Source: Chryseobacterium lactis
GTDB taxonomy: Bacteria; Bacteroidota; Bacteroidia; Flavobacteriales; Weeksellaceae
Direction: 5' to 3'
NCBI RefSeq assembly: GCF_003815875.1
Contig: NZ_CP033924.1
Location: 1,488,001 to 1,552,000 of the forward strand
DNA length: 64,000 nucleotides
Shown here: positions 3,158 through 12,259 of the stretch, in pieces
How the letters are laid out: each line of letters starts with the position of its first letter
Position numbering within the stretch: the stretch's first letter is position 1
Notes under the pieces: model-generated
Database searches by the model: none
Seen by the model: only the letters and a program-made list of their open reading frames with translations
Told to the model about the DNA's origin: nothing
Made by a program: the position numbers and the translations under genes

Positions 3158-3589
3158 TTATCTTTTGCTTTTAAAAAAATCTTTCACGATAGAAGAACAT
3201 TCAGCTTCCATAATTCCGGTGATCACTTCCGTTTTTGGATGTAGGGAAAGATGTTTGTTGATGAAGCCCCTTTGTTCATCACGGGCACCGATTACCACTT
3301 TTGAAATCTGGGACCATGAAAGGGCACCGGAGCACATTACACAAGGTTCCATGGTAACATAAAGTGTACAATCCTTCAAATACTTTCCTCCAAGAAAATT
3401 GGCGGCAGAAGTGATCGCCTGCATTTCTGCATGAGCAGTGACGTCATTTAAGGTTTCAGTGAGATTGTGAGCTCTTGCAATAATCCGGTTATTTGAAACG
3501 ACAACACATCCAATGGGAACCTCATCTTTTTCCAGGGCAGCTTCTGCTTCCTGCAGAGCCATTTTCATATAATATTCGTCAGTAAACAT
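3158..3589 (-). CDS. tadA: tRNA adenosine(34) deaminase
   Basis: A zinc deaminase that converts A34 to inosine in tRNA-Arg(ACG). The 143-residue protein has the HAE zinc and catalytic motif at residues 53-55 and PCVMC at 82-86, the two signatures of the cytidine/adenosine deaminase fold. The segment DEVPIGCVVV is also typical of TadA. The start ATG lies directly against the stop codon of the upstream gene (3590-3592), so translation is probably coupled. Guanine deaminase is an alternative in this fold, but the length and motifs favour TadA. Confidence 0.9.
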   Translation of the reverse strand: MFTDEYYMKMALQEAEAALEKDEVPIGCVVVSNNRIIARAHNLTETLNDVTAHAEMQAITSAANFLGGKYLKDCTLYVTMEPCVMCSGALSWSQISKVVIGARDEQRGFINKHLSLHPKTEVITGIMEAECSSIVKDFFKSKR

Positions 3590-4210
3590 TTATTCCGTCA
3601 TTGTTAAAGTTAAAGGAAGTTTGAATTGGAATCTTGCGGCATCTCCTTTAGCTAAGGCAGGAACAAATTTTTCAGAAATAGAATACAAAGCAATTTCAGC
3701 CTGTCTGTTAAAAGTGAAGTTATCTCCCTGAGCATGTACATTGCTTACGCTTCCATCTTTTTCCACAACAAAAGCAACACTGGTCTTTACCATTTTTGCT
3801 TCAGAATTAACGCCGCCAACATACAAAAGATCAGCAACCTCCTGTCTTAAAGTATTGATGCCTCCTGGGTAATTGGGAGCGCTCTCTACAAAATAGGGGG
3901 ATTCAAATGTACTTTTTGATGCATTTAATTTTATAGACTGAAGATCCTCCAGGTTCCTTACTTTCAATAGCGCTCCGATGAGTGCACTGTTTTCAATACT
4001 GTCCATTTTTTTCATGAAAAAAAGGAAGTCTCCTTTTATGGAAGCTTTTTTGAAGGTATTGGATTCCGCATCAAATTTTTTCTTGAATTCTTTATTCAAC
4101 ATGCTTCTGTGCTGGTTGTAATATGTTTTTACAAGCCTGAATTCTTCTTTCTGCTGTGATAAACAGAATGAAGAAATGATACAGCAGAGACAAATAAATA
4201 AAGCTTTCAA
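3590..4210 (-). CDS. Secreted protein with TonB C-terminal-like domain
   Basis: A 206-residue protein with a signal peptide (MKALFICLCCIISSFCLS followed by QQ, a common flavobacterial cleavage context). The middle is charged and helical. From about residue 110 the pattern YPGGINTLR...VAFVVEKDGSVSNVHAQG...ALAKGDAARFQFKLPLTLT matches the TonB C-terminal fold found in many Bacteroidota secreted proteins. There is no N-terminal membrane anchor with a proline-rich spacer, so it is unlikely to be a true energy transducer. It is upstream of tadA with no gap and probably co-transcribed. The function is unknown. Confidence 0.75.
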   Translation of the reverse strand: MKALFICLCCIISSFCLSQQKEEFRLVKTYYNQHRSMLNKEFKKKFDAESNTFKKASIKGDFLFFMKKMDSIENSALIGALLKVRNLEDLQSIKLNASKSTFESPYFVESAPNYPGGINTLRQEVADLLYVGGVNSEAKMVKTSVAFVVEKDGSVSNVHAQGDNFTFNRQAEIALYSISEKFVPALAKGDAARFQFKLPLTLTMTE

Positions 4211-4264
4211 TAGGGTATATTTATGTAAATATACTCAAAAAATGTGAGATCCGGCCATTCTCAA

Positions 4265-5185
4265 TCAACTCTCAAGATAACGGTTCAATGACTCCTGAAG
4301 GTGGGTGCGGATGTCATCAACTAAACCTTTCGGTTCTAATACGGTTACTTCTTTTCCGTAGGAGAGAATTTCCTGCATAAAGTCGTAAGTAGGGTGTAAA
4401 AAGAATTCAAAATAGATCTCTTCCGGCGTTTCTTTAGTCTCTTTCTGTGATTGATGAAGCGGAAAACTTCTGATATATTCGCCCTGATGGCGGCTGCATT
4501 TCAAGACAATATTTTGCGGTTTTTGTTCGGTAAGATTCATCACTCCGAAAGCATTTTTAAAATGCTCTCTGAAGTTGTAATTATATTTTTCTCTGAACTT
4601 ATTATTACTTACATCCAGATAATTGATTCTGTCCAGTCCAAATGATTTCAAAGCTTTATCCTTTGTATCAATTGCGATAAGGTACCATCTGTCTTTGGAT
4701 TCTTTCAGGGCCAAAGGATGCACTTTTCGGGAAGTCATCAGTTTGTTCTTGTAATTGTAATGTTCAAAAGAAACGACTCTTTTATTACGAATGGCAAAGA
4801 AAAGATCATAAAAATGCTCTACACCGGTCGGTTTGCGGCTTTCAAAAAAAATAAAATCTGAAAAATCAGGGTGAAGATTGAGGGCATTACTTACCTGGAA
4901 AGATTCTAATAATTTCTGATTGTATTCATCCACTTCCATAATCGGACGACTTTCAATATAATATCGGTTATCGCCCTTTTTTTTATTGTGAATAGAAAGA
5001 TTAAAGAGATTGGAAATCTCACGGATATCCCTTTGCAACGTGCGGATAGAGTAACTCTTGATCTCTGCATCCTGAAATTCAAAAGAGTTTAAAAGATAAT
5101 CTTCCAGCTGCGAATAGGTGGCCGGAGAGCTTTCCAGTCTTTTTATAATTAAGGCATATCGTGTCAGATAAAAATCTTTTTTCAT
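4265..5185 (-). CDS. WYL-domain transcriptional regulator, probable master regulator of the 5.2-9.8 kb island
   Basis: A 306-residue regulator. Residues 1-60 form a winged-helix region (YSQLEDYLLN...SIRTLQRDIREIS), the arrangement of PafC/DeoR-like WYL proteins. Residues about 130-200 form the WYL domain with RWYLIAIDTKDKALKSFGLD, followed by a WCX-like C-terminal extension with PTYDFMQEILSYGKEVTVLEP. WYL domains in PafBC, DriD, CapW and BrxR bind ligands, in some cases single-stranded DNA, and switch DNA binding. Its own promoter carries the motif that also precedes the downstream-numbered genes of the island, so autoregulation and control of that regulon are inferred. Confidence 0.88.
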   Translation of the reverse strand: MKKDFYLTRYALIIKRLESSPATYSQLEDYLLNSFEFQDAEIKSYSIRTLQRDIREISNLFNLSIHNKKKGDNRYYIESRPIMEVDEYNQKLLESFQVSNALNLHPDFSDFIFFESRKPTGVEHFYDLFFAIRNKRVVSFEHYNYKNKLMTSRKVHPLALKESKDRWYLIAIDTKDKALKSFGLDRINYLDVSNNKFREKYNYNFREHFKNAFGVMNLTEQKPQNIVLKCSRHQGEYIRSFPLHQSQKETKETPEEIYFEFFLHPTYDFMQEILSYGKEVTVLEPKGLVDDIRTHLQESLNRYLES

Positions 5186-5202
5186 GATTTAATTTTATAA
5201 GA

Positions 5203-5243
5203 CAAATATATGGGCTTAATGCGACAAAACGTGTCGTGTTTTA
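5203..5243 (-). promoter_or_regulatory. WYL-regulon promoter A (WYL gene)
   Basis: Read on the minus strand: CACGACACGTTTTGTCGC (5238 to 5221), then 10 nt, then TATATTTG (5210 to 5203). The dyad CGACA-N5-TGTCG is perfect. The leader before the WYL start codon at 5185 is only about 12 nt, so this is the regulator's own promoter. Confidence 0.8.
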
Positions 5244-5280
5244 TTTTTTAAAGATTAATCTTACTCTTGTTTATAAAATA

Positions 5281-5305
5281 AAAACCACTTCAAAGAAATG
5301 GTTTT
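5281..5305 (-). terminator. Terminator downstream of the small acidic protein gene
   Basis: Arms AAAACCACTTC (5281-5291) and GAAATGGTTTT (5295-5305) pair with a single wobble. Read on the minus strand the hairpin is followed by TTATTTTA. It would end a short transcript starting at promoter B. Confidence 0.6.
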
Positions 5306-5312
5306 CAAAACA

Positions 5313-5413
5313 GGTTCCGCTGTCCAACATTTTGTGAATGGTGATTCAAAGGGATATGAAGATGGTGAATTGGTTATTAGCTGATTGTGAATATTTTGGA
5401 CAGCTCCGGAACC
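5313..5413. repeat. 101-bp element with 15-bp imperfect terminal inverted repeats
   Basis: GGTTCCG+CTGTCCAA (5313-5327) pairs with TTGGACAG, a CTC bulge, then CGGAACC (5396-5413). The enclosed 68 nt show no gene. It lies in the 3' untranslated part of the small acidic protein transcript. It could be a MITE or insertion sequence remnant, or a long structured RNA; the sequence alone does not decide. Confidence 0.5.
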
Positions 5414-5431
5414 CGGTGTTTTTAAAGGTAA

Positions 5432-5677
5432 TTACAAAGTCTCTTCTTCAAGAATATCTTCTTTACAATCTTCTCTGAAAAAGTTTTCAACGTCGTTGAG
5501 ATAATTATCATAATCCATCTCTACGTGTTCAATATCTCCCCATTCTATGGTGTAGGGGATTTCATCAATGATGACATTTGTTTTATGATTGGTTGCTTCC
5601 ATACTTTTTGTGGTAAGAGAAAAGGTGTTTTTTGAATATATTTTTTGTTGGTCGATATTTGTAAAAGATGAATTCAA
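5432..5677 (-). CDS. Small acidic protein of unknown function
   Basis: Up to 81 residues, strongly acidic at the C-terminus (HVEMDYDNYLNDVENFF...EDILEEE). The longest frame starts with TTG at 5677; an ATG at 5600-5602 would give 57 residues beginning MEATNHKTN. The promoter B motif lies 49-89 nt upstream of the TTG start, and a terminator follows at 5281-5305, so the unit has its own transcript. I recognise no family. Its acidity could suit DNA mimicry or binding to a basic partner, but that is speculation. Its shared promoter with the neighbours is the main reason to believe it is expressed. Confidence 0.55.
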   Translation of the reverse strand: MNSSFTNIDQQKIYSKNTFSLTTKSMEATNHKTNVIIDEIPYTIEWGDIEHVEMDYDNYLNDVENFFREDCKEDILEEETL

Positions 5678-5725
5678 AGGCTATTTAAGTTTTGGTTATT
5701 AGTTTTTTTGATGATGTTTCTTTTT

Positions 5726-5766
5726 CAAAAGTAGTATTGGAAAGCGACAAAACTTGACGCATAAAA
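5726..5766 (-). promoter_or_regulatory. WYL-regulon promoter B (small acidic protein)
   Basis: Minus strand: TGCGTCAAGTTTTGTCGC (5761 to 5744), 10 nt, then TACTTTTG (5733 to 5726). It sits between the stop codon of the 184-residue gene and the start of the small acidic gene. Confidence 0.78.
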
Positions 5767-5796
5767 AATAATTTAGAATGAATTTTATATTTTTTT

Positions 5797-6351
5797 TCAG
5801 GAAAAATCTTTGATGTCAATCTCATCGGCGATGAGCATTATAATATCCATTTCAGATAACATTGATTTGAGTTTTATTCCTCCGGGATTTAAATTAGGAT
5901 CAGAAAGAATAAACCACCAGATCTGTTGAATAAAATCCTCAAACTTTACTTCCGGATGATAAACCAATGTATTTGTTTGTGCTGCTAAAGCCAGTAATTG
6001 TTTAGTGATATCTCTGCATTCATTCATTTTTCCTTCATGTGGTAAGAGCACATTTAATACACAATTCTGAGCATCGTAAAGAAGGCCGGCCGTGATTTTA
6101 AGCTGATTTTTTTTAGCATTAAAACCTCTTTCATCACTTATTCTTCCTGCCAGAATTTTACTTCTGAATCCTGCAATTTCTGAAACTTCACTGATGGTAT
6201 TTGTAGACAGTATATCTTCTACAGCTTTTAACCATACTATTGTTTTTTCAACAAAAAGAGGATCCTTTTTCTCTAAAGACGATACGATTGCAGGAAGGCC
6301 CTGAAGCTGTTCTTTTAACTGGGAAACCAGGATAAATTGTGACTTTTTCAT
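5797..6351 (-). CDS. Hypothetical protein, third gene of the DUF2589 operon
   Basis: A 184-residue protein I cannot assign to a family. It looks mostly helical and soluble, with no signal peptide or membrane segment; a basic patch RSKILAGRISDERGFNAKKNQLK near residues 64-86 is followed by a more hydrophobic C-terminal half ending in an acidic stretch (MDIIMLIADEIDIKD). It starts 3 nt after the stop codon of the 227-residue gene, so the two are translationally coupled and probably work together. Transcription comes from the DUF2589 promoter C upstream. Codon use and composition look like the neighbours. Confidence 0.75.
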   Translation of the reverse strand: MKKSQFILVSQLKEQLQGLPAIVSSLEKKDPLFVEKTIVWLKAVEDILSTNTISEVSEIAGFRSKILAGRISDERGFNAKKNQLKITAGLLYDAQNCVLNVLLPHEGKMNECRDITKQLLALAAQTNTLVYHPEVKFEDFIQQIWWFILSDPNLNPGGIKLKSMLSEMDIIMLIADEIDIKDFS

Positions 6352-6354
6352 GTT

Positions 6355-7038
6355 CTATTCCGGGATTAAAGTTTCTACGATATTTCCATTGATATCCTCG
6401 TATCTTGACCATTCCATTCCTGCTTCACTGACACTCATTTTAGCAAATACCAAACATTTTACATCAAGCTCCATCAATTTGCCGGCCTCGATAATAATCT
6501 CATAATCTTCTGTTTTTTCAATAATCTTTCTCGTTTCCAGAGTTATTCTGTCGGAAAGACTCTGAAATAATACATCGGGATTGGTCGTCTTCCAGCTTAG
6601 GTTAGAAAGAGATTTACAGAATTCTACAATATTTTTAGAAAGAGGAACCAAATATTCAATCTGATCATTAGTCAATGTCGGTGTATTCTGTTCTTTAATC
6701 TTTTTGAGAATATCAGTATGAATAGCTTCCTGGTTGATGAGAAAGGCTTTCAGGCTCTGATCTTCTTTTATATTGGAAGGATCATAATCTGTTTTGGCAA
6801 CTTTTGTAATTTCATCATAAGTAAAGTCCCTGAAAATCATTTTCGGTGAATTTCCCGCTGTAGCAAAAGGAATCGTAAGATCCACAGTACCAACTTTCAT
6901 TCTGGGAATTGAAAAATGTTTCAACAGATCATCCTGGGCATATTCTTTAGCCATTTGTACAGTTTGCAGATCGGTCATTTTTCTGGCTGAAGCAATCTCA
7001 GAGACGATGCCTCCCAAATATTCTCTTAATTTTGGCAT
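6355..7038 (-). CDS. DUF2589-like divergent protein
   Basis: A 227-residue cytoplasmic protein. Its first 60 residues follow the layout of the adjacent DUF2589 protein: a GG-containing N-terminal helix (LGGIVSEIASARKMTDLQTV here, IGGPMQAAIKAQHEASMSQV there) followed by a beta segment IPRMKVGTVDLTIPF, matching IPALRIDEMTIDF in the neighbour. The remaining 150 residues are helical and share nothing I can recognise. I infer a distant paralogue with a new C-terminal domain. It lies 71 nt after the DUF2589 gene and 3 nt before the 184-residue gene, in one operon. Molecular function is unknown. Confidence 0.7.
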   Translation of the reverse strand: MPKLREYLGGIVSEIASARKMTDLQTVQMAKEYAQDDLLKHFSIPRMKVGTVDLTIPFATAGNSPKMIFRDFTYDEITKVAKTDYDPSNIKEDQSLKAFLINQEAIHTDILKKIKEQNTPTLTNDQIEYLVPLSKNIVEFCKSLSNLSWKTTNPDVLFQSLSDRITLETRKIIEKTEDYEIIIEAGKLMELDVKCLVFAKMSVSEAGMEWSRYEDINGNIVETLIPE

Positions 7039-7109
7039 AATAGTTTTTTTTTAGTGAATAAAAATTGTTTAAAATGGATGGCTGCCGGAGCAACCATCCA
7101 AAAAAGATG

Positions 7110-7685
7110 TTAAGGAGTTACAGGCGCCGAATTAGCTACAATAGCATCTTCCAGCATATCCATAATTCTCGCCAGACCGGCAGGCAATTCATCATTTACA
7201 GCTTTTACATGTACTCCCAAAGTATATGTTTTTTCTGTCGTAGATGTGCTTGAATTGGTTTTCTTGTAAGAAGCTGAAGCATTGAACTTTACTTTCCAGA
7301 ACTTGGCACTTAAAGAAGCACTTCCCTGGAACTCAGTGGAAATATTCTGAGTTTCTACGGAATTCAGTTTTGCATTAAAGTCAATGGTCATTTCATCAAT
7401 TCTTAAAGCCGGAATCGTCAACATAGAAAGCAATGGAACACTCAACGTAACTTGTGACTGTACCGGAGTTTCATTGCCCTGAACAGGGTTAGGTACTGTT
7501 TTTTTGTACACAAAATCCACATATCTGAGCTTTGTAGCTGGCCCTGTTCCTTCAAAACCAACTTCTTTAATGAAATTGACCTGTGACATAGAAGCTTCAT
7601 GTTGAGCTTTTATCGCTGCCTGCATTGGGCCTCCGATGTAAACACTGAAATCTAAACTGTTTAATTCTTGGACTAAATTTGCCAT
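7110..7685 (-). CDS. DUF2589 domain-containing protein
   Basis: A 191-residue protein matching the DUF2589 pattern: an N-terminal amphipathic helix with IGGPMQAAIKAQ, a beta-strand core YVDFVYKKT, then VPLLSMLTIPALRIDEMTIDFNAKL, and a long strand region (FQGSASLSAKFWKVKFNASASYKKT) ending in a helix. No signal peptide is present. DUF2589 is a family without an assigned biochemical role as far as I know. It is first in a three-gene operon with its own copy of the WYL-regulon promoter (site C, with degenerate site D further upstream) and a leader of about 185 nt. Confidence 0.82.
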   Translation of the reverse strand: MANLVQELNSLDFSVYIGGPMQAAIKAQHEASMSQVNFIKEVGFEGTGPATKLRYVDFVYKKTVPNPVQGNETPVQSQVTLSVPLLSMLTIPALRIDEMTIDFNAKLNSVETQNISTEFQGSASLSAKFWKVKFNASASYKKTNSSTSTTEKTYTLGVHVKAVNDELPAGLARIMDMLEDAIVANSAPVTP

Positions 7686-7874
7686 AATTGTAAAATTTTA
7701 AGGTTATTAATTGGTTAATAATATATAGTAGTTGCTAGCAAACTAATATTCATATGAGGGAATAAGTATCCTGTTCAGTATCTGGTCAACTGAAGATTAA
7801 TAATGAACCGGTAATAAATATTGGGGGAAGAATAAGCTTATTTAGCTATAGTTTTCCTGGTTATTTTGTTAATT

Positions 7875-7915
7875 CAAAGATAGTTGGGTGAAGCGTCAAA
7901 ACTCGTCGTGTTAAA
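7875..7915 (-). promoter_or_regulatory. WYL-regulon promoter C (DUF2589 operon)
   Basis: Minus strand: CACGACGAGTTTTGACGC (7910 to 7893), 10 nt, then TATCTTTG (7882 to 7875). Spacing is identical to sites A, B, E and F. Confidence 0.78.
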
Positions 7916-7949
7916 TATATTTTTGAATTTTATTCTGTTTTTTTAATAA

Positions 7950-7990
7950 TCAAGGTATTGTCGGACAACTACAGAATTTGACGTGTATAA
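7950..7990 (-). promoter_or_regulatory. Degenerate WYL-regulon site D
   Basis: Minus strand: CACGTCAAATTCTGTAGT (7985 to 7968), 10 nt, then TACCTTGA (7957 to 7950). Fourteen of 18 motif positions match site B/F types, and the TA dinucleotide is at the conserved distance, but the -7 box is poor. It may be a second weak promoter of the DUF2589 operon or the relic of a lost gene's promoter. Confidence 0.5.
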
Positions 7991-8053
7991 AGCTTTTGGA
8001 TTTTTAAATTATAAGCTAAATAGCTTATTTTGAGTCATTATAAGTTCAGGGGC

Positions 8054-9091
8054 TTATATTTTGTTTTTAATGAGTTTTTGAACAATTTGGTTCAGTACTT
8101 CTCTGTTGTCATCAATATAGCTCAGTCCGGCTTGTATCAGGTTTTCAATATTAGAGCGTCTTACATTATCCATTGCCGGTGATGCATTTTTCAACGACGG
8201 ATTCAGGCGGTAATAATTTTTCTGATTTCTTAAACCTAATGTTTGAAACATCTGACCAAGTTGATAATCTACTGTTTCAGCATTTGCTGACATTAAAATA
8301 TCGATAATCGGATTTACCCAACCTATTTTTCCTGCTTTTTCTAATTTTTTAAATGAATAAGATCTGGCTTCAATTCCTGTTCCGATAGAAATAATGATCA
8401 TATCATTGACTCCGGGATGATTGGCCTTCTGGTGATTTTTCAAAACTTCGGCAAAAGGAATTTTTCTGGCTTCTGCGTATGCACAAAGAGCAGGATTATT
8501 GGCAAACATTCCGCCATCAATGAGGCTAAAAATCTGCCCGTACATTGATTTGATCTGCACAGGACAAAAATAAGTAGGGGCTGCTGAAGTGGCTCTGCAG
8601 ATATCTCTTACATAGAAATTATCTGTGCTGAGGTTGGCTTCCCATGAGTTGAAAAGCTTTGCTCTTCTGTTTTCGATGTCATAACTTGTTATTAAACATG
8701 GTTTTATTAATTCTTTCAATTCTAAATTTCCAAAAAAGTCGTTCAGGTTTTTCTGAAGAGCATCCTGAGAAATTCTTTCATTCAACAGTCCAAACGGATT
8801 GACCAGTTTTTCCCAAAAAGAAACCTGGAAGATGTCGCCGCCCTTTTCAGCATATAATTCTAATCCTTTCTGGATTGAATATTTTGCTTTTCGGGTTTCA
8901 TCGGGGCATAGAATAATTGAAGCAATCAGACCGCCGGTACTGCTGCCCGCTACCAGATCAAAATAATCTCCAAGTTTGGCACTTGGTTTATCATAATACT
9001 GGAGCTGTTCTTCTATGTAGCGTAGAATAATGCAGGTGATAATTCCTCTTATTCCACCCCCGTCCAAAGAAAGAATGGTTGTCTTTTTCAT
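8054..9091 (-). CDS. Patatin-like phospholipase
   Basis: A 345-residue lipid acyl hydrolase. The oxyanion motif DGGGIRG is at residues 10-16, the nucleophile elbow GSSTG at 49-53 (Ser51) and the catalytic aspartate in DGG at 192-194, so the Ser-Asp dyad is intact. No signal peptide is present, so it acts from the cytosol on the inner membrane. The overall layout resembles the CapV-type patatins used as CBASS effectors, but no CD-NTase or other CBASS gene is in the window. Its promoter (site E) carries the shared WYL-regulon motif with a leader of about 125 nt. Membrane damage on induction is an inference. Confidence 0.9.
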   Translation of the reverse strand: MKKTTILSLDGGGIRGIITCIILRYIEEQLQYYDKPSAKLGDYFDLVAGSSTGGLIASIILCPDETRKAKYSIQKGLELYAEKGGDIFQVSFWEKLVNPFGLLNERISQDALQKNLNDFFGNLELKELIKPCLITSYDIENRRAKLFNSWEANLSTDNFYVRDICRATSAAPTYFCPVQIKSMYGQIFSLIDGGMFANNPALCAYAEARKIPFAEVLKNHQKANHPGVNDMIIISIGTGIEARSYSFKKLEKAGKIGWVNPIIDILMSANAETVDYQLGQMFQTLGLRNQKNYYRLNPSLKNASPAMDNVRRSNIENLIQAGLSYIDDNREVLNQIVQKLIKNKI

Positions 9092-9222
9092 GTGATATTT
9101 TAATTGTTTTTTTAAAAGGACACATGCAATCTTAAATCTGTAAAAACCGAAATTTTCATAAGTTAAAAAAGAGCGGTTTTGTTTTTAGATTTCATTGCTT
9201 TTTTAGTTGTTTTCTTGTAAAG

Positions 9223-9263
9223 CAAAGATAGGACGGGGAAGCGACAGAACTTGTCGTATTTTA
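9223..9263 (-). promoter_or_regulatory. WYL-regulon promoter E (patatin)
   Basis: Minus strand: TACGACAAGTTCTGTCGC (9258 to 9241), 10 nt, then TATCTTTG (9230 to 9223). The dyad CGACA-N5-TGTCG is perfect. Confidence 0.8.
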
Positions 9264-9285
9264 TTTAATTTCAAATAAAAGAGAA

Positions 9286-9786
9286 TTAAAAAATAACATA
9301 ATTTTCCTTATCTCTAGGCAGTTTCGAGAGTATTCTCCAGCTGGTTTTTATAAGCCCTTTTCGGGACGGAATTACCTTTTTTTCAAAGTGAGGAAGGTCT
9401 TTAAACGTCTTCCAGTTGCCGCCCCAGTCCCAACCATGCCTGGCGAAAATTTTCACACATTCATACCAGTCGGCGACCTTGTCATTATCCCAATCTTTTG
9501 CCGTGTCCCAGCTTGCTGTTTTTCCATCGATCATCAGGCAAATATCCACAGCAAGGCCATAATTATGGATGCTTTGCCCGGCCTTTGCATTGGTTACTTT
9601 TTTCCCTGAAGTAATTCTTCCGATAGCATATAGCTTTTCCTGTTCTTCAAAAGATCGTAACCCTTGTGTGATTCTTATTTTGGCTCTGCCGGTAAGGGCT
9701 TCATCACATTCTTGGATAATTTGCTTTACTTCATCCCTTACCAGCGGATGAAGTTTCTGAATTCTTTCTGTTGTTACTTTGTCCAT
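9286..9786 (-). CDS. M15 family metallopeptidase, L-Ala-D-Glu endopeptidase type
   Basis: A 166-residue zinc peptidase of the VanY/endolysin fold. Zinc and catalytic residues are visible: His74 and Asp81 in SIHNYGLAVDI, and Asp130/His133 in DLPHFE; GLRSFEEQ near residue 43 is the substrate-binding strand. The form resembles phage endolysins such as T5 and Ply500, which cut the L-Ala-D-Glu bond of peptidoglycan. There is no signal peptide, so export would need membrane damage or a holin-like route. It has its own copy of the WYL-regulon promoter (site F) about 16 nt upstream of the start. A prophage origin is possible, but no other phage gene is near. Confidence 0.9.
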   Translation of the reverse strand: MDKVTTERIQKLHPLVRDEVKQIIQECDEALTGRAKIRITQGLRSFEEQEKLYAIGRITSGKKVTNAKAGQSIHNYGLAVDICLMIDGKTASWDTAKDWDNDKVADWYECVKIFARHGWDWGGNWKTFKDLPHFEKKVIPSRKGLIKTSWRILSKLPRDKENYVIF

Positions 9787-9806
9787 GATTTTATACTATT
9801 ATAAAT

Positions 9807-9847
9807 CAAAAATATAGAATGATAACGACTAAACTTGACGTGTTTTA
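9807..9847 (-). promoter_or_regulatory. WYL-regulon promoter F (M15 peptidase)
   Basis: Minus strand: CACGTCAAGTTTAGTCGT (9842 to 9825), 10 nt, then TATTTTTG (9814 to 9807), followed by the M15 start codon at 9786. Confidence 0.78.
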
Positions 9848-9963
9848 ATAATTTTTTTAACAATAAAAAGTTTTAATAGAAAGTATGTTGTTTCATTTTT
9901 AATTTTTTATTAATTAAGTTCAGATAAGGTCATAAAAACGATACGAGAAATAGGAATTGCCTG

Positions 9964-9971
9964 TATATTTG
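9964..9971 (+). promoter_or_regulatory. Candidate -7 box for the antiporter gene
   Basis: TATATTTG matches the Bacteroidota TAnnTTTG element and lies 50 nt before the antiporter ATG. No convincing TTG at the -33 position is seen. Confidence 0.4.
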
Positions 9972-10021
9972 TAGAATAAATTACTCTTAATGGTTCAAAA
10001 ATAATCAGAACAGAGTAGTGG

Positions 10022-11626
10022 ATGAAAATTAAAAAACACAACATAATGCATACGATTTTACCCTTTTTCCTGGCTATGATAGCTGCTATTGTCCTGTTAA
10101 ATATGTGGGCAACCAAGCTGAAAATTGCTTATCCGATTTTATTGGTTGTTTTTGGATTATTGGTCAGTTTTGTACCCGGTTTACCTGCCGTAAAAATAAA
10201 TCCTGATCTGATCTTTTTTATCTTTTTACCCCCATTATTATTTGAGGCCTCGTGGTCTATTTCTTTTAAAGAAATGAAAAAATGGTGGCGGATTATCGGC
10301 AGCTTTGCATTTCTTGTTGTATTTTTTACTGCTTTGTCGGTAGCAGTTGTTTCTAATTATTTTATTCCGGGATTTACCATTGCTTTAGGGTTTTTGCTTG
10401 GAGGAATTGTTTCTCCGCCCGATGCCGTAAGTAGTGGTGCTATTATGAAATTTGTGAAAATTCCGAAAACAACTTCTGCAATTCTTGAAGGCGAAAGCTT
10501 ACTCAACGATGCTTCTTCTTTAATTATTTTCCGTTTTGCTCTTATTGCTGTGGGAACAGGGCAATTTGTATGGCAGGAAGCTTCACTGAATTTTTTGTGG
10601 ATGATTATAGGTGGTGCAGGACTTGGATTATTACTGGCCTGGATTTTTGTACAGGTGCACAAACGTCTGCCGACAGATGCCTCATCAGATATTGCATTAA
10701 CTTTGATTGAGCCCTACCTGATGTACTGGCTGGCAGAACAGTTTCATAGTTCTGGAGTACTGGCGGTAGTTTGCGGAGGCTTGTATATGTCAAGTAAACG
10801 AATGATATTTTTAAGCAGTACGAGCCGGATTCGAGGGTATAGTGTTTGGGAAAGCTTTGTATTTATCCTGAATGGAATCGTTTTTTTAATTATCGGACTT
10901 GAACTTCCGGAAATCGTTGGCGGATTGCGCTCAGAAGGTATTCCTTTGCCCACCGCCATCAATTATGGAGTTTTGGTGACAGGTATTCTGATTGCTGCCA
11001 GAATTATAAGCTCGTACGCTGCAATGCTCGCCACTATTATTTTCCGACCGGGGGTGGCTCCCCGGGCTTCTTCGAACAGGAGACGTCTGATGATGCCTAT
11101 TATACTGGGCTGGACCGGAATGCGAGGTGTAGTATCGCTGGCTGCTGCTCTTGCCATTCCTATCAGTCTTCATGGTGCTCCTTTTCCGAACAGAAATCTA
11201 ATTTTGTTCATCACTTTTGTTGTGATATTGCTTACTCTTCTTGTGCAAGGCCTTACATTGCCTTATCTTATCAGATTTGGGCATGTGTTTGACGATTTTA
11301 TTGATGATGAAAAAGAAGAATTAGTCCGTCAGGAAATAAAAACAAAACTGAAGCAGCATGTCTATCATTTTCTTAAAGATAAACATGAAAATGAGCTTCA
11401 AAGTCATGCCGGTATAGAGCGAATGCTGAAACACTGGGAAGAGAAAAATAAAGCAAGCGATACGGAATGGATGAATGAAAAAACCAAGCTTATTTTCCTT
11501 GAAATGCTAGAAAGTCAGAGACAGTTTCTTTCAGAGCTGAACAAAGATATATCGATCAATGAAGAAATTATCCGCCATCAGTTGTATCAGCTTGATCTGG
11601 AAGAGGAGAGATTAAGGATGATTTAG
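10022..11626 (+). CDS. Na+/H+ antiporter, CPA1 family
   Basis: A 534-residue inner-membrane protein with about 12 hydrophobic segments up to residue 420, then a soluble charged tail of about 110 residues (KEELVRQEIKTKLKQHVYHFLKDKHEN...). Motifs FIFLPPLLFEASW, GEGESLLNDASSLI-like LEGESLLNDASSLIIF and GWTGMRGVVSLAAALAIP are diagnostic of CPA1/NhaP exchangers, with the ND pair as ion-binding residues. It exchanges cytosolic sodium or potassium for protons. The start ATG at 10022 is used here; an ATG at 10046 is an alternative. It stands alone, convergent with the YdeI-like gene. Confidence 0.92.
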   Translation: MKIKKHNIMHTILPFFLAMIAAIVLLNMWATKLKIAYPILLVVFGLLVSFVPGLPAVKINPDLIFFIFLPPLLFEASWSISFKEMKKWWRIIGSFAFLVVFFTALSVAVVSNYFIPGFTIALGFLLGGIVSPPDAVSSGAIMKFVKIPKTTSAILEGESLLNDASSLIIFRFALIAVGTGQFVWQEASLNFLWMIIGGAGLGLLLAWIFVQVHKRLPTDASSDIALTLIEPYLMYWLAEQFHSSGVLAVVCGGLYMSSKRMIFLSSTSRIRGYSVWESFVFILNGIVFLIIGLELPEIVGGLRSEGIPLPTAINYGVLVTGILIAARIISSYAAMLATIIFRPGVAPRASSNRRRLMMPIILGWTGMRGVVSLAAALAIPISLHGAPFPNRNLILFITFVVILLTLLVQGLTLPYLIRFGHVFDDFIDDEKEELVRQEIKTKLKQHVYHFLKDKHENELQSHAGIERMLKHWEEKNKASDTEWMNEKTKLIFLEMLESQRQFLSELNKDISINEEIIRHQLYQLDLEEERLRMI

Positions 11627-11647
11627 AATGCTTCTTTTTGCGGATAG

Positions 11648-12259
11648 CTATTTCTTCTCATATTTCCAGTTCCTGCCTTTTCCCTCAGAAATCCATTCCA
11701 AAGCCTGATCTATTCGTTTATTTCGGGTGGCTTCTGTTTTGGCCTCCATAATCCAGGTGATGTATTCTTTTCTGAATGATGGTGATGCTTTTTCGAAAAT
11801 ATTTAATGCTTTTTTATGGGTATTTAAAGCAATTTGAAAATAATCAGGGATTTCAATTTCTGTTTTCGAGGGAGCTGCTTTTTTCATGGTAACACCCATC
11901 TCTGTGAGCTCCATTGCCTCCCGTATTGCTTTTTTAAGCTGAGGTTTTGAAGGAAGGTCTTCAACTCTGGTGATTTTTCCGAGACTGAACATTGAGTTTT
12001 TTTCAATATCCTGAGTGATTTCCTGCATTGTTTTCATCTCTTTTTCCAACCAGAACCCGAAGGTGCAATGTTGTTTAAAAGAAGCCATAGCACAAAGATT
12101 TTTCCCTTTGTATATAAAATGAGGAAATCCCCATTTCAAAGTTTCTTCAGCTTCAGAACAGTGTTCATGAACCGTTTCACGAATGTAATGTAAAACGGGT
12201 TTTGCAAAATCCTGAGATTTTTCAATATAAGCATCTATTTTTGAACTGTATTTTTCCAT
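11648..12259 (-). CDS. YdeI/OmdA-type DUF1801 protein
   Basis: A 203-residue soluble protein. The first 115 residues show the DUF1801 pattern (AEETLKWGFPHFIYKGKNLCAMASFKQHCTFGFW), and the C-terminal 60 residues show the OmdA pattern (FRKEYITWIMEAKTEATRNKRIDQALEWI). This two-part layout is the YdeI family, whose exact role is unclear; the OmdA part has been linked to bacteriocin protection in name only. Its start codon overlaps the last base of the serine hydrolase stop codon (12259), so the pair is translationally coupled. Confidence 0.85.
   Translation of the reverse strand: MEKYSSKIDAYIEKSQDFAKPVLHYIRETVHEHCSEAEETLKWGFPHFIYKGKNLCAMASFKQHCTFGFWLEKEMKTMQEITQDIEKNSMFSLGKITRVEDLPSKPQLKKAIREAMELTEMGVTMKKAAPSKTEIEIPDYFQIALNTHKKALNIFEKASPSFRKEYITWIMEAKTEATRNKRIDQALEWISEGKGRNWKYEKK

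Follow-up and report, generated by a model that had tools for sequence, protein, structure and literature searches.

A fixed-register operator set in Chryseobacterium lactis, probably read by a WYL activator of the DriD/PafBC type

We analysed a stretch of 64,000 nucleotides of the Chryseobacterium lactis genome (contig NZ_CP033924.1, positions 1,488,001–1,552,000; hereafter the window, numbered from its first letter), in which the gene for a WYL-WCX regulator and the transcripts upstream of it have promoters with a common dyad. We consider it rather likely that the WYL-WCX protein is an activator of the DriD/PafBC kind, and that it drives, besides its own gene, competition genes across the genome through a dyad held at one fixed register to the promoter. 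Read along the minus strand, the locus comprises the genes for an M15 peptidase (promoter site F) and a patatin (site E), a three-gene operon led by a DUF2589 protein (site C), a small acidic gene (gene B, site B) and the WYL-WCX regulator (site A). The original prediction had treated these five transcripts as one WYL-controlled regulon and hence as genes that act together.

The five minus-strand promoters with a shared dyad are all present, namely A (5203–5236, box TATATTTG), B (5726–5759, box TACTTTTG), C (7875–7908, box TATCTTTG), E (9223–9256, box again TATCTTTG) and F (9807–9840, box TATTTTTG). Sites A, B, C and E match the 34-mer pattern CGWCRMGTTYTGWCGC-N10-TAnnTTTG without a mismatch and F matches it with two. 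As predicted, the motif ends exactly 10 nt before the TAnnTTTG box at all five sites; the dyads are CGAC-N7-GTCG-like, and CGACA-N5-TGTCG is perfect at A and E. A decayed second site (D; 7950–7983, minus strand, box TACCTTGA at N10) lies 75 nt upstream of site C, and one relative (L134) has two intact tandem sites at the place of C and D. The full pattern, with up to three mismatches, has no further match in the window, while the dyad alone (up to two mismatches) is not rare there (14 found, 9.8 expected). The statement that the motif is missing from other gene starts thus holds within the window, apart from site D, and fails in the genome, where there are 14 more sites.

Across the whole genome the motif-N10-box pattern (up to three mismatches) has 19 matches and its reversed form none, and the 16-base core alone occurs at 21 places compared with six for the reversed core. 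With no spacing condition imposed, the best −7 box lies at exactly 10 nt for 19 of these 21 core matches (17 uniquely, two tied). The loci of 80 relatives give the same picture: the box follows at exactly 10 nt for 202 of the 203 cores found without a spacing condition (the reversed core has four matches). In 188 distinct site contexts, which are drawn from related genomes and hence are not independent, the conserved positions that had not been selected for are AA(C/T)A ahead of the dyad, the box itself and, 4–5 nt behind it, a T-A pair that may be the transcription start point.

A motif search of the whole genome and of related genomes had been proposed as a check. It places the set genome-wide, an outcome that the original prediction had itself named as refuting: because of the 14 further sites, a private regulon of five transcripts is ruled out, and the argument that the five form one regulon and hence act together is unsupported as put. 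The other targets are, however, not random. Six of the outside sites precede Rhs/SBBP operons, four of which hold DUF6443 Rhs-type proteins, one of them (L022) with a type 9 secretion system (T9SS) sorting domain and an HNH end; L028 and L029 are assigned to this group by sequence likeness only, and the T9SS domain is found again in L154, a copy from another genome. Three sites stand in front of genes for proteins that look, by eye, like phage tail spikes; Pfam matches a beta-helix in one of them and PHROGs match none. Single sites stand before a gene similar to L143 (itself with DUF285 and a T9SS sorting domain), a weakly tail-fibre-like gene, a transglutaminase-like gene and a gene for a 239-aa protein of no assigned function. 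The last site, before a phage-type gene and with three mismatches, is probably due to chance. The patatin–DUF2589 set looks like one part of a broader competition regulon.

Pattern matches with up to two mismatches are present in 87 of 88 genomes of the genus and in three of 59 genomes from other families of the order, with none for the reversed control in all 147. Over 197 genomes of the family there are 914 matches (derived from mean counts) and two for the control. In the 80 named stretches from relatives that contain the locus, the sites typically stand before the M15, patatin, cargo and WYL genes.

Several results connect the motif to the WYL gene. A site lies within 400 nt upstream of the WYL gene in 79 of the 80 named loci, and the remaining locus (L258) has a decayed one; site A would thus be autoregulatory. 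In two control regions of the same 80 genes, the opposite strand and the 400 nt downstream, no site was found. With an orthologue defined by an E value of up to 3.5e-114, 70 of the 71 family genomes that have a WYL orthologue hold at least two sites, compared with four of the 126 that lack one (197 genomes; Fisher p = 3e-47, uncorrected for descent). The only genus member in the set without a WYL orthologue and a patatin, G059, has no site. Six genera contain both WYL-bearing and WYL-less genomes, and in four of them the site counts do not overlap. Since the target gene is away from the locus, the SBBP genes provide a fairer test: they have a site in seven of nine cases with WYL and in two of 14 without (for one of these 14 there is no upstream sequence, and 2/13 gives p = 0.007). 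The 239-aa target (L006/L142) cannot serve in such a comparison because it is confined to the genus (46 of the 197 family genomes). The WYL protein is therefore the likely reader of the motif. We infer its binding to the sites; control by WYL, as originally proposed, is otherwise well supported by the self-promoter, the co-occurrence, the smaller share of SBBP genes with a site in WYL-less relatives and the match to the promoters of known WYL activators.

The WYL-WCX protein itself (4265–5185, minus strand; 306 aa) has both domains above the Pfam cut-offs (PF13280, 2.9e-14; PF25583, 1.8e-08). By sequence the nearest solved structures are PafB, PafBC and DriD, with detectable similarity limited to the WYL-WCX part. 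Pfam finds no helix-turn-helix family in the protein; Ser46, Arg48, Thr49, Leu50, Gln51, Arg52 and Asp53 are invariant in 18 aligned proteins, and Arg48 and Arg52 are spaced as are Arg38 and Arg42 of SiwR. Among the residues with which PafB binds single-stranded DNA (ssDNA), Arg181, Tyr196 and Arg214 are retained as Arg153, Tyr168 and Arg186, and Arg208 is conservatively replaced by Lys180.

The operator also resembles those of the two activators. The PafBC promoter motif reads tTGTCRgtg-8 nt-TAnnnT (PMC5656591), with 17 nt from TTG to TA, a distance that the present TTGTCGC-N10-TA shares. For DriD the site is given as ATACGAC-N7-GTCGTAT, always equally far from the −10 element (PMC12340889). 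We scored three printed Caulobacter promoters on a matrix built from the 19 sites of the C. lactis genome; didA and driD reached 15.4 and 15.5 bits, respectively, which none of 1000 shuffles equalled, and in both the N10 is followed by CA where TA stands here. Because dyad, register and spacing match the published sites of PafBC and of two of the three DriD promoters, the WYL protein is probably an activator of this type.

We therefore propose that the WYL-WCX protein, presumably as a homodimer, would bind the dyad AAYACGWC-N7-GWCGC, and that the dyad, held at a single register, would stand in for the −33 element; counting the TA of TAnnTTTG as −12/−11 puts the GWC at −27 to −25. The bound protein would let RNA polymerase start at TAnnTTTG promoters, and would in this way activate its own gene, the M15/patatin/variable-cargo locus, the unlinked Rhs/SBBP operons and the tail-spike-like genes, a set that would serve competition between bacteria. 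According to the structural reports on PafBC and DriD, the WYL protein sits at the −26/−35 region and the housekeeping polymerase uses a promoter with a poor −35 element, and both activators are switched by ssDNA (PMC11804915, PMC12340889). DNA damage, in the form of ssDNA, is by analogy our leading guess for the inducing signal. The ligand may differ from that of PafBC and DriD, as some of the ssDNA-binding residues of PafB are replaced.

The same sites might instead be bound by the WYL protein as a repressor, which a signal would have to release before the promoters could fire. WYL regulators are known to occur next to defence genes, the patatin resembles a CBASS effector (CBASS, cyclic oligonucleotide-based antiphage signalling system) and the site overlies the −33/−7 region; a repressor, too, could act from a site fixed at the −33 region. 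Bacteroidota-type promoters follow a −33 TTG rule, and it is the place of this element that the site occupies. A register kept to the exact base (202 of 203) is what sigma-touching activators need, and it is the same register as in PafBC and DriD, both of them activators. As the register is rigid and the site takes up the −33 position, we infer that activation fits better, and we regard repression as unlikely.

Other observations weigh against the WYL protein as the reader or against its likeness to DriD and PafBC. The third Caulobacter promoter, bapE, scores 2.7 bits at the expected place, and its best match lies elsewhere (nine of 1000 shuffles score as high). Arg211 of PafB corresponds to an invariant glycine (Gly183), and Arg204 to Asp176 in the window protein. 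In one genus (g44) the WYL-less genome G266 has three sites where its WYL-bearing relatives have 2–12, and in another (g56) the sole WYL-bearing genome, G261, has one site, as do two WYL-less genomes. Two WYL-less genomes keep the site at the SBBP gene and two WYL-bearing cases lack it. G150 has the M15 gene, the patatin gene and three locus sites and no close WYL orthologue, and G201, G222 and G266 have two or three sites without one. The site and the WYL gene may co-occur simply because both belong to the locus: several genomes from outside the genus have most or all of their sites there, and patatin and WYL travel together in the family, so that much of the co-occurrence is locus-dependent. 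The motif could also be read by a second, ubiquitous regulator.

The alternative raised by these cases, that a regulator encoded elsewhere reads the motif and the WYL gene is merely one of its targets, would account for the four genomes with two to four sites and no close WYL orthologue. We nevertheless consider it quite unlikely, as the motif agrees in sequence and register with the sites of two WYL activators, the presence of WYL tracks site number within genera, and no other transcription-factor family is found among the seven locus proteins in the window. A self-contained CBASS-like defence system, with a CapV-type patatin, a CapW-like WYL protein and the five transcripts as the whole, is highly improbable: a CBASS-effector-like patatin (PADLOC phospholipase effector, 3.6e-60) and a WYL regulator do share the locus, but we reject such a system because Pfam gives no nucleotidyltransferase (CD-NTase/cyclase) family match in the 16 locus and neighbouring proteins scanned and the patatin falls below the NCBIfam CBASS lipase cut-off (NF041079, 161.7 versus 200 bits), and the sites are genome-wide and the cargo of relatives includes toxin domains.

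Individual genomes offer some further observations on the regulator and its sites. The locus of G150 (L131; G150:C2:12556–14411) also carries a gene for the large protein BIG described below, and a diverged regulator may serve there. In G201 a site lies about 6 kb from a WYL homologue of only 37% identity (G201:C419:4750 and 10643), which suggests that the operator may predate the group of close WYL orthologues. The WYL-less genome G266 has a target-family gene interrupted by a stop codon, still preceded by a site with two mismatches (G266:C2:437679–438453), which would fit a decay of the regulon once WYL is gone. At the locus of G261 (L132) the sites at 6068, 7704 and 10455 read G(G/A)CA(C/T) instead of GWCGC, and residue 47 of the WYL protein, within its putative recognition helix, is lysine and not isoleucine; protein–operator co-variation is a possible explanation.

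The M15 peptidase (9286–9786; 166 aa; this and the following genes are on the minus strand) is phage-endolysin-like, with matches to PF13539 (4e-19) and to PHROG endolysin families (best 5.4e-30). Its relatives in viral contigs number 169, of which 80 were kept, and include this very locus filed as viral (L262–L264). Beside other such relatives (L270–L299) the neighbouring open reading frames (ORFs) resemble, on inspection by eye, genes for tail sheath and baseplate proteins, perhaps of Mu-like prophages or tailocins. The patatin-like phospholipase (8054–9091; 345 aa) matches PF01734 (1.8e-24). The DUF2589 operon consists of C1 (7110–7685; 191 aa; PF11655, 2e-32), for which the fold prediction was unusable (predicted local distance difference test score, pLDDT, of 45), and of C2 (6355–7038; 227 aa) and C3 (5797–6351; 184 aa), which have no assigned function. 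The small acidic gene B (5432–5602) has homologues in 30 of the 80 loci and matches no Pfam family above the cut-off; its ORF opens at a TTG at 5677, and the ATG at 5602 (Met at residue 26) is the likelier start. A search of positions 3500–12000 with Rfam gave no match.

In the relatives the typical locus runs from M15, patatin and B81 through a variable cargo to WYL; patatin is seen in 36 loci and M15 in 28, numbers limited by the 10-kb flanks and by contig ends, which hide genes. The DUF2589 operon is one cargo variant, with C1, C2 and C3 together in nine of the 80 loci. The other comprises TAILN tail-spike-like proteins (one with a PHROG tail-spike match at 9e-18), BIG (∼1250 aa) and another large protein, which small ORFs follow. 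BIG belongs to a family of about 1200–1350 aa (L130:8226–11831, L158, L146) without a Pfam or NCBIfam match where scanned; its named relatives are annotated as ‘hypothetical’ and come from Chryseobacterium, Sphingobacterium and Cloacibacterium. A model of BIG (mean pLDDT 61) had no Foldseek match at an E value of 0.001 or better, and on a further look mainly residues 805–924 were matched, to unrelated beta-sandwich proteins. No BIG match was found in the C. lactis genome, in a search run without a positive control.

The protein behind BIG, present in 47 loci, has 336–924 residues (1594 in one case). Several families of these proteins share N-termini and differ in their C-termini, and others have too few relatives to judge. 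We scanned 35 cargo proteins, 29 of the 47 and six from other loci; the toxin domains matched included CdiA_C (two), Tox-MPTase4 (two), WHH, Ntox28 and Colicin-DNase (one each), with metalloprotease-like domains in up to five proteins and several weak matches of no obvious meaning (22 families in all). Judged by sequence, the relatives thus show the polymorphic-toxin pattern of shared N-termini, variable C-terminal toxins and small downstream ORFs. The window itself does not show this pattern, and Pfam gave no toxin-domain match in its cargo, the DUF2589 operon.

By a simple measure of hydrophobicity, as distinct from a signal-peptide predictor, there is no hydrophobic N-terminus in M15, DUF2589, BIG, TAILN, B81 and 46 of the 47 proteins behind BIG, and there is one in Rhs; the measure fails to separate patatin (1.87) from an exported SBBP protein (1.79). 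One tentative and rather doubtful extension of our proposal is a competition that is induced by damage and released by lysis. On DNA damage, or on a related nucleic-acid signal, a DriD-like WYL activator would co-induce the endolysin, the phospholipase, the large toxins without signal sequences and the exported Rhs proteins; endolysin and phospholipase would break open part of the cells and free the large toxins, and the activator would do for Chryseobacterium-type Bacteroidota what SOS control does for bacteriocins elsewhere.

A umuC gene adjoins the M15/patatin locus in many Chryseobacterium genomes (L184, L206, L211, L219 and others), and upstream of the umuC-like ORF we noted by eye a different, GTTAAATNTGNTGTTAA-like repeat, perhaps the site of a UmuD/LexA-like repressor. 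The operator (up to four mismatches) lies upstream of 18 of the 22 umuC-like ORFs present in the loci covered, but on the other strand; as none of the 22 has it on its own strand, we do not claim umuC as a target.

What is new here is the regulon, its content and the Bacteroidota form of the promoter; the type of regulator is already known. The 12–20 best-ranked literature matches listed per search include no account of such a regulon, the main text of a study of botulinum-like toxins in C. piperi mentions neither patatin nor M15 nor WYL, and the sole treatment of DUF2589 in the literature searched concerns an archaeon. The set would give a WYL protein of the Bacteroidota a concrete, genus-wide regulon, and would join BIG, TAILN, DUF2589 and B81 in one testable competition programme; further genes of this kind could be found cheaply by scanning for the motif. 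It may also bear on how such bacteria sense damage, given that the LexA family TIGR00498 has no match in the C. lactis genome (nine of 14 control genomes do match).

Of the known systems, BrxR and CapW are repressors and local regulators of defence operons. They share with the present case a WYL protein beside conflict genes, here next to a CBASS-effector-like patatin, whereas this set is genome-wide and has a fixed promoter geometry. Type 10 secretion, in which a lysis cassette of phage descent sets large toxins free, has in common with this locus a phage-endolysin-like gene together with large proteins that lack a hydrophobic N-terminus, here under one putative switch, and the M15 peptidase appears to be of phage origin by its PHROG families and viral relatives. 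The differences are the patatin in place here and the holin and spanin, neither of which was recognised among the 16 window proteins scanned. The TANFOR/Rhs toxins of Bacteroidetes (PMC7073777) are likewise large proteins and have exchangeable C-terminal toxin domains, small ORFs behind them and T9SS neighbours. They differ in that no TANFOR match was obtained among ten proteins scanned with NCBIfam, and in that the presumed delivery proteins BIG and TAILN match neither Pfam nor NCBIfam where scanned.

The closest likeness is to the WYL activators. Mycobacterial PafBC is a heterodimer with a non-palindromic motif (PMC6789036) and runs a DNA-repair regulon by sigma adaptation. DriD of Caulobacter crescentus differs in its targets (didA, bapE, recJ and dnaG, compared with toxin-like or secreted proteins here), in its promoter, which here has the Bacteroidota −7 box TAnnTTTG, and in one ligand arginine that is missing from the window protein. 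DriD shares with the present regulator the WYL-WCX architecture, a matching dyad, a site over the −35 region and a site in its own promoter (PMC12340889). Operator and spacing thus agree with those of WYL activators from mycobacteria and Caulobacter, which belong to other phyla, and the −26 register may therefore be general to WYL activators.

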